NCBI RefSeq assembly: GCF_000429585.1
Contig: NZ_AUCD01000014.1
Span: forward strand, 1-35,528
Reading direction: 5' to 3'
Source: Atopococcus tabaci DSM 17538
GTDB lineage: Bacteria > Bacillota > Bacilli > Lactobacillales > Carnobacteriaceae_A
DNA length: 35,528 bases
The notes under the pieces: model-generated
The model's input: only the letters and a program-made list of their open reading frames with translations
Told to the model about the DNA's origin: nothing
Database searches by the model: none
Part shown: positions 32,943-34,288 of the stretch, piece by piece
How the letters are laid out: each line of letters begins with the position of its first letter
How positions within the stretch are numbered: position 1 is the stretch's first letter
Position numbers and translations under genes: made by a program

Positions 32943-32989
32943 AAAAAGCCTTCGATTCAGTATTTAAATGCTGATTTGCAGGCTTTTTT
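32943..32989 (+). terminator. Intrinsic terminator of pdp
   Basis: AAAAAGCCT and AGGCTTTTT form the outer stem, and ATTCAG/CTGAT a second inner stem; T's follow. Confidence 0.85.
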
Positions 32990-33039
32990 ACGCTTAAAAA
33001 TAAACTCAAAAAAACTTTCGAAAAAATATTAAATAACAC

Positions 33040-33068
33040 TTGTAATGTTGGCGGTTGCATGCTATGTT
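33040..33068 (+). promoter_or_regulatory. Promoter of the structured RNA
   Basis: TTGTAA (33040-33045), a 17-base spacer and TATGTT (33063-33068), giving a start near 33075, just before the first helix. An AT-rich tract lies upstream. Confidence 0.5.
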
Positions 33069-33074
33069 ATAGAC

Positions 33075-33478
33075 GTAGAGAGGGAGATGCAAAGCTGTCG
33101 GAAGAATGCATATCGCTCTTTACGACAGAACCATCTTCATGGTTCGAGGGGACGATGTGAAAGGTCGTCCAGGCGCACTCTCTATTCAGCGACAAGCAAA
33201 AAGTTTTGGAAGTCAACCACTGTACACGTATTGAAAAAGAATGTACCAGTCGAGACAGAAGCTGAAGTTTGAAACTGGAACAAGAAGTAAGCAAGATCGA
33301 AGAAGTACTTGCTGAAACTCGAGAGTGCGCTAATGGTAGTGTGATTCCAAGTATGTAGACAACAGACATTTCGATGAAAAGCGGAAGATGGAATAGACAA
33401 TTTCCATCCTGTAAACTGTGTGTGAAGGAATCGCACTATCGTATGAAGAAGGGAGAGGCCGAGCGCCTCTCCTTTTTT
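33075..33478 (+). ncRNA. Unassigned structured noncoding RNA, about 400 nt
   Basis: No convincing coding frame runs through this block. By hand I find: CTGTCG/CGACAG (33095-33128) stacked on AACCAT-CTTC-ATGGTT (33129-33144); GGACGA/TCGTCC (33150-33170); long-range GCGCACTCTC/GAGAGTGCGC (33173-33182 with 33321-33330) enclosing TTCAGC/GCTGAA (33185-33190 with 33261-33266), ACTGTACA/TGTACcAGT (33219-33250) and AGCAAG/CTTGCT (33290-33313); long-range 14-bp GGTAGTGTGATTCC/GGAATCGCACTATC (33335-33348 with 33427-33440, two G-U pairs) enclosing GATGGAA/TTCCATC (33387-33408). All helices are compatible in one fold. It lacks the RNase P, tmRNA and T-box signatures. Function unknown. Confidence 0.7.
33452..33478 (+). 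terminator. Terminator of the structured RNA
   Basis: GGAGAGGC and GCCTCTCC pair around CGAGC, followed by six T's. Confidence 0.92.
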
Positions 33479-33531
33479 GATGCACCGACAGACAGGAATT
33501 CCATTTTTTCATCCGAAACATTCCAGCAATA

Positions 33532-33540
33532 TGATATAAT
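33532..33540 (+). promoter_or_regulatory. Extended -10 promoter of azlCD
   Basis: TGATATAAT is a TGn-TATAAT extended -10 with no good -35 at the proper distance. It lies 31 bases before the azlC ATG, so azlC is transcribed independently of the RNA upstream. Confidence 0.6.
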
Positions 33541-33571: not shown

Positions 33572-34288
33572 ATGACAAAGAAAGATTGGTTGGAAGGATG
33601 TAAGCAGATGATTCCTGTTGCTGTCGGTTATATACCTTTAGGGATCGCAGGTGGAATGGCTCTGCAGAGTGCCGGGTTTTCCACATTCGGCATCTTTTTG
33701 ATGAGCCTGCTCGTCTACGCCGGTGCCGCTCAATTTATGACCGCATCGATGGCAGCGGCCGGTGCCACGGTGCCATCTATCATACTGATGACCTTCTTTT
33801 TAAATTTACGGCATTTATTGATGTCTTCGAGTATCTCAGGTTATTTGAAGAAGAAGTCGTACCCGTTCCTTCTGCTGTTCAGCCATACGTTGACGGATGA
33901 AGCGTTCGGATTGAATACCCACCGCTTCACCACAGGCAACTGGTCTCCGGAAAAAGGACTGGCGGCCAATATTTTGGCCTATTCTTCCTGGGTCCTCAGC
34001 ACGGTAGCAGGTGGGATGATCGGGACAACTCTCCACATCCATACAGCTGTTGTCAACTATGTGTTGATTGCCATGTTTATTTGTATGCTTTTGGAGCAGT
34101 TTGTTTCTAAAGCGCATCTCGTGGTGGGAATCGTTGCCGGTATTTCGGCCGTCATACTGAAGGCTCTGCTGCAGCACAACATCTCATTGGTAATCGCAGC
34201 GCTGATTGCTTCGTTTGCCGGCTATCTGCTTGACAGCCGTCGACAGGAAAAACCAGAGAAAGAAGAGGCGATGCAGTATGACAAGTAG
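33572..34288 (+). CDS. azlC: Branched-chain amino acid exporter, large subunit (AzlC family)
   Basis: A 238-residue membrane protein with several hydrophobic helices. AzlC-family marks are GCKQMIPVAVGYIPLGIAGG at the N-terminus, VYAGAAQFMTASMAA, LNLRHLLMSSSISG and LTDEAFGLNTHRF. With AzlD it forms an exporter of branched-chain amino acids and analogues. GGGGGTGGG precedes the ATG. The C-terminus overlaps azlD by 11 bases. Confidence 0.93.
   Translation: MTKKDWLEGCKQMIPVAVGYIPLGIAGGMALQSAGFSTFGIFLMSLLVYAGAAQFMTASMAAAGATVPSIILMTFFLNLRHLLMSSSISGYLKKKSYPFLLLFSHTLTDEAFGLNTHRFTTGNWSPEKGLAANILAYSSWVLSTVAGGMIGTTLHIHTAVVNYVLIAMFICMLLEQFVSKAHLVVGIVAGISAVILKALLQHNISLVIAALIASFAGYLLDSRRQEKPEKEEAMQYDK

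Follow-up and report, generated by a model that had tools for sequence, protein, structure and literature searches.

A new family of large structured RNAs with a cre-like promoter site in Aerococcaceae/Carnobacteriaceae-type Lactobacillales

Several regulatory RNAs have been placed under the control of CcpA. RosA of Bacillus subtilis (S345, about 229 nt) is repressed by CcpA at a cre and released on poor carbon sources (PMC8216469), and RsaI of Staphylococcus aureus, listed at 111 nt, is a CcpA-repressed, trans-acting RNA that is derepressed under glucose starvation (PMC9266662). Within the Lactobacillales, ArgX of Lactococcus lactis is a CcpA-repressed sRNA of 66 nt with its own promoter (PMC6586332). 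SR1 is a further precedent for a CcpA-repressed sRNA (PMC6586332). In roughly one third of lactic acid bacterial species, the promoter of the 6S RNA gene contains a cre, and repression is the expected effect of a cre that overlaps a promoter (PMC8414754).

Here we describe a structured RNA gene of about 404 nt in the window, by which we mean the whole stretch of 35,528 nucleotides of Atopococcus tabaci DNA that was analysed. The gene is discrete, carrying its own promoter and terminator elements, and belongs to a new family of non-coding RNAs of Aerococcaceae/Carnobacteriaceae-type Lactobacillales. Judged by Rfam and the searched open-licence papers, the family is undescribed; no description of it was found in those papers.

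The RNA gene between pdp and azlC

The RNA gene is flanked by pdp, which encodes pyrimidine nucleoside phosphorylase, and azlC (33572-34288, Pfam AzlC). Delimited by fold, family comparison and covariation, it runs on the plus strand from the first helix, P1, to the end of the terminator T-run (33075-33478), with its 5' end placed from the position of the promoter. The first-pass annotation had proposed a promoter of the form TTGTAA-17-TATGTT, and the sequence bears this out, showing a promoter of the sigma-A type: the -35 box TTGTAA lies at 33040-33045 and the -10 box TATGTT at 33063-33068, both on the plus strand and separated by a 17-bp spacer, and the -10 box is extended (TGC before it), its counterparts in homologues being of the TATATT type. 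At the other end, an intrinsic terminator occupies 33446-33478 of the same strand; its stem, GGAGAGGC/GCCTCTCC, spans 33452-33472, the six T's already remarked on follow at 33473-33478, and in homologues the terminator is conserved and covaries.

Between these signals, the predicted plus-strand fold begins with the 5' hairpin P1 (33075-33123), in which 33075-33090 pairs with 33108-33123 around two 1x1 internal loops; P1 is captured by the covariance models R1 and R2 described below and is 100% identical in a second genomic copy. Two smaller hairpins follow, P2 (GAACCAT/ATGGTTC, 33128-33145), seen in both the fold and the family comparison, and P3 (GGACGAT/GTCGTCC, 33150-33170), which shows compensatory change. 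The multibranch domain P4 (33172-33331) is closed by a long-range helix of 33172-33182 with 33321-33331, and the P5 domain (33333-33442), which contains inner hairpins, by one of 33333-33348 with 33427-33442. The two long-range helices noticed at first reading are found here: GCGCACTCTC at 33173-33182 pairs with GAGAGTGCGC at 33321-33330 over 10 bp with a 138-nt loop, and 33335-33348 pairs with 33427-33440 over 14 bp, G-U pairs included, with a 78-nt loop. The helices claimed earlier are borne out; their count of nine was too low, the predicted fold having 14 when all those of 5 bp or more are counted.

The minimum free energy of 33071-33479 was -144.2 kcal/mol, compared with -102.6 +/- 5.6 kcal/mol in 100 dinucleotide shuffles (z = -7.4, 0/100), and the z value was still -4.5 after the last 40 nt, which hold the terminator, had been removed. 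The same fold was obtained for the second genomic copy and for the copies of Lacticigenium (z from -6.9 to -8.2), and 11 family members folded without the terminator gave z values from -2.7 to -10.3. Coding potential was low, as had been claimed: the plus strand of the RNA holds no ORF of note, and for the two ORFs on the antisense strand, of 100 and 84 aa, Pfam gave no match above a curated cut-off. The idea of a dual-function RNA with a small ORF was dropped because no SD-led small ORF is conserved across the family.

The earlier view that the RNA is of no recognised class agrees with the Rfam searches, in which no family reached its cut-off anywhere in the window. No match above the gathering threshold was obtained in the window or in 13 homologous loci, with RNase P, tmRNA, T-box and riboswitches included, and permissive searches of the window and the homologues likewise gave nothing above cut-off.

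An RNA family of common architecture

BLASTN searches within the same genome revealed a second copy of the RNA on contig C51 (L002 1001-1398), and a weak match in another genome of the same bacterial family corresponded to two tandem copies in Lacticigenium naphthae (L003). These two copies, on the minus strand at 1205-1575 and 1826-2194, are near-identical, lie about 620 bp apart and adjoin a DUF2187 gene. A covariance model of P1 and P2 (R1) extended the set to two other families within the order, and a second covariance model (R2) gave additional members beyond R1. By-eye removal of plain terminators and coding sequence left 28 family loci; the weak model matches L049, L073, L077, L078, L109, L111 and L115-L119 were inspected and rejected as belonging to one or other of these two kinds. 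The second copy, the family itself and the cre-like site described below were absent from the first-pass annotation.

The 28 loci include those of Desemzia incerta, Desemzia sp. RIT 804, Pisciglobus halotolerans, Ruoffia tabacinasalis, R. halotolerans and L. naphthae. When 395 genomes sampled evenly across the order were searched, 25 of them, in nine genera and three families, remained as carriers after inspection; among 399 genomes sampled evenly across the class, no member lay outside the order Lactobacillales. Within the reach of the 73-position model the family is lineage-restricted. Searches with the single motif GCATATCGCTCTTTA, allowing one mismatch, returned only chance matches beyond the window genome and Lacticigenium. 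Among phages and plasmids, BLASTN gave no related element, and pattern scans of viral contigs gave none.

Members are about 254-420 nt long, the most divergent being L105 (254 nt), and nearly all have in common the order P1, P2, P3, the long-range domain P4, the long-range domain P5 and the terminator. P1 is the best conserved part. A domain equivalent to P4 is present in other clades; across distant clades the equivalence of P4 and P5 is one of position and shape, the sequences there not being alignable.

Compensatory change was examined clade by clade. Six copies from the family of Desemzia and Pisciglobus (f2 g30) show two-sided change at 15 of 91 pairs with 97.6% of cells paired, a result reached in 0/500 shuffles, with shuffle and slid controls nowhere near; nine distinct copies from the family of Ruoffia (f5 g36) show it at 9 of 125 pairs with 98.6% paired (again 0/500 shuffles), and the Ruoffia group at 14 of 102 pairs, figures that are supportive and not probabilities, as the clade alignments are small (4-10 sequences) and the kinship of their members inflates the shuffle results. 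For the window RNA, the first-pass annotation had named covariation at the long-range helices as the test of a structured RNA. Comparison with the paralogue and Lacticigenium revealed two-sided change at 3 of the 11 pairs of the P4 long-range helix and at 5 of the 6 pairs of P3; when locus L097 was added, the P5 core showed it at 4 of 10 pairs. The changes in the P4 and P5 helices answer the test in favour of structure. The P5 helix GTGTGATTC/GAATCACAC is also found in L097.

Two further features of P1 were observed. Its loop motif CTGTCG (33095-33100) is complementary to CGACAG (33123-33128) at the P1/P2 junction, so a 6-bp pseudoknot is possible; the pairing comprises 6 bp in the window RNA and its paralogue and 4 bp (CTGT/ACAG) in Ruoffia-type copies, and it found no support in the other clades compared. 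In several g36 copies (L102 1217-1584 on the minus strand, L103 and L106-L108), the 3' strand of P1 can alternatively pair locally, with AAAGAG/GAAGAG in the P1 loop. This modelled alternative hairpin might conceivably constitute a two-state switch.

The 5' region also bears on a possible link to Enterococcus Ref66 (RF02839), under which the RNA would be a relative of that RNA and the antitoxin of a type I toxin-antitoxin pair. For one homologue, Ref66 was the top Rfam match below threshold on the same strand (18.5 bits, E 0.12, full length, with co-linear 5' ends), and in an E. faecalis record it resembles the family in its -10 region (ACATGTTATTAT) and 5' hairpin (AAAGAGAGATATGC). In that record (NZ_CP143580.1, L143 1501-1618), near gatC, Ref66 overlaps the 3' end of an opposite-strand gene for a 'putative holin-like toxin', an arrangement that suggests a type I antitoxin RNA. 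The score of 18.5 bits, however, compares with a gathering cut-off of 92, and matches were weaker or lacking in the other homologues searched. Ref66 is about 120 nt long, is without P4 and P5 and has no apparent cre at the same place of its promoter, and a homologue of the holin-like toxin was not found in the family loci. Membership of Ref66 was therefore rejected after the E. faecalis comparison, on the sub-cut-off score and the lack of a convergent toxin gene, and we regard an antitoxin role of this type as very improbable. The resemblance lies in the -10 region and the first 5' hairpin, and the 5' hairpin of the new family might conceivably be distantly derived from Ref66-like RNAs.

Gene neighbourhoods and the cre-like promoter site

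The two copies in the window genome differ sharply in how well their parts are preserved. P1-P2 is identical at 71 of 71 positions, compared with 69% identity in the promoter and 55% in the remainder, so that the P1-P2 module is the likely core of the RNA; from these identities, this 5' module would be either unusually constrained or recently converted. The paralogue has an FMN reductase gene on one side and marR on the other, and the order FMN reductase, RNA, marR, DUF2187 is common to it and the related genus f2 g30. Since this gene order recurs there, the site of the paralogue is probably the older one, the paralogue the ancestral copy and the window RNA a duplicate. In two genomes of genus g3, of the same bacterial family, decayed NADPH-FMN reductase genes lie upstream of marR (L011 331-950; L014 2370-3060, minus strand), and at the corresponding marR site of the window genome the reductase gene is intact, with the RNA paralogue coming after it. 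In other genomes of this bacterial family, the inspected regions upstream of DUF2187 lack the RNA and contain only reductase genes in decay, tRNAs or short gaps.

These neighbourhoods also bear on whether the window RNA could act in cis, either as a leader or attenuator of azlC (for example, one sensing amino acids) or as a product of the pdp 3' UTR. It does lie directly upstream of azlCD, which encodes a branched-chain amino acid exporter, and in the same orientation. Against this, the RNA has its own terminator, and 50-60 nt further on azlC has its own promoter, as had been noted earlier, with the extended -10 TGATATAAT at 33532-33540; pdp itself has a terminator-like hairpin at about 32945-32990, and no T-box or riboswitch was matched in Rfam. 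The downstream gene, moreover, varies by clade: it is azlC at the window RNA, marR at the paralogue and in f2 g30, and elsewhere what we take, several names coming from protein sequences, to be an MBL-fold hydrolase (Ruoffia), a pyruvate oxidase (G305) or a zinc-binding lipoprotein (g36), among others. Because downstream genes differ between clades, the RNA is very probably not cis-acting, and a leader or 3' UTR origin seems highly unlikely to us. The window RNA is free-standing, and the changing neighbours together with the lack of a conserved small ORF argue for action in trans. The original description of a free-standing, elaborately folded and lineage-restricted RNA has thus gained support from the varied neighbours, the compensatory helix changes and the lack of an Rfam match.

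A cre-like palindrome occupies the same place in the -35/-10 spacer of all 28 family promoters, with 0-2 mismatches to TGWNANCGNTNWCA (none at 10 loci, one at 14 and two at 4), for example as TGTTAGCGCTTACA or GTAAACGCTTACA. Shuffled promoters reach at most one mismatch in 0.4% of cases and at most two in 6%. Both covariance models begin four bases before P1 and leave the promoter spacer outside, so the search did not select for the site. The -35 box of the other family promoters is TTGACN, or TTGTTA/TTGTTT in the bacterial family of the window. In addition, ccpA scored above the TIGR01481 cut-off in 9 of 9 carrier genomes tested. On this evidence, control of the RNA family by CcpA is well supported. 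The site of the window copy, TGTTGGCGGTTGCA at 33046-33059 on the plus strand, has two mismatches and is among the weakest, and that of the paralogue, TGTTAGCGCTTTCG, has one. CcpA control of the window copy is likely on these grounds; given that 6% of shuffled promoters reach two mismatches, this copy may have partly lost it.

A structured RNA gene with a promoter cre recalls 6S RNA (RF00013), for which such a site has a precedent in lactic acid bacteria (PMC8414754), and a divergent 6S RNA was accordingly weighed. Its fold, a rod with a central bubble, is not that of the window RNA. The window has no 6S match, and the genome has a separate 6S RNA above cut-off (C33:12430-12615), as do 30 of the 31 genomes searched, this one included. 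The 6S reading is therefore refuted, and we give it practically no weight.

Proposed function and comparison with CcpA-controlled RNAs

We consider it probable that the window RNA represents a new family whose members are repressed by CcpA, released as preferred sugars run out and active in trans; it would then probably be a regulator that comes into play once good sugars are exhausted. While good sugars are present, CcpA/HPr-Ser-P would occupy the promoter and repress the RNA gene. Upon exhaustion of the preferred sugars, the RNA would accumulate and act in trans, most likely by pairing with mRNAs or other sRNAs. Pairing is the default mode for such RNAs, and between pairing and a protein scaffold we infer the former as the most likely mechanism. 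The invariant P1-P2 module may serve as the common core, as a 5' stabiliser and/or a protein-binding element, and the more variable P4 and P5 domains may present target-specific segments.

Alternatively, the RNA could be a ribonucleoprotein scaffold or protein decoy, in which the conserved P1 serves as the binding site of a protein, possibly CcpA itself, and the remainder is a stabilising fold that offers no pairing surface. This reading would suit the invariance of P1-P2 between the paralogues despite its being mostly paired, and CcpA of S. aureus binds bulge-interrupted RNA helices near terminators with about the affinity it has for cre DNA (PMC9130240). No cre-like sequence is evident in P1, however, and the reported binding of CcpA to RNA is weak (about 10 micromolar) and general, so that we hold a scaffold or decoy to be unlikely. 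A broader idea is similarly speculative: these could form a class of large multi-domain RNAs in which the 5' module recruits a protein, possibly CcpA in a sugar-dependent feedback, and the fast-changing long-range domains are interchangeable parts for target recognition or scaffolding.

Large structured RNAs are rare in bacteria, and the discovery of each has tended to uncover a function not seen before. The present family offers numerous natural variants, a pair of paralogues within one genome and a strong regulatory clue, and a part in the shift from good to poor sugars lends itself to direct testing in carriers such as Lacticigenium, Desemzia and Pisciglobus. If the proposed regulation by CcpA and action in trans are true, carbon catabolite control would gain a level of regulation by RNA in these bacteria, among which few regulatory RNAs are known.

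Among the described CcpA-controlled RNAs, RosA likewise is non-coding, has a promoter and a terminator to itself and is repressed at a cre site. It differs in being half the size, in the position of its cre (-1 to +12), in the G-rich regions by which it sponges RoxS and FsrA, and in its lineage, and no P1-P5 architecture has been reported for it. RsaI is much smaller and has known mRNA targets that it reaches through SD pairing, and no homology to it was found; ArgX, at 66 nt, is smaller still and overlaps the 3' end of argR. With a cre-like site at 28 of 28 family promoters (two mismatches in the window copy), ccpA in 9 of 9 carriers, and an own promoter and terminator with no fixed neighbour, the RNA is, by analogy, best placed with the known kind of CcpA-controlled regulatory RNAs, from which its size and multi-domain fold set it apart.
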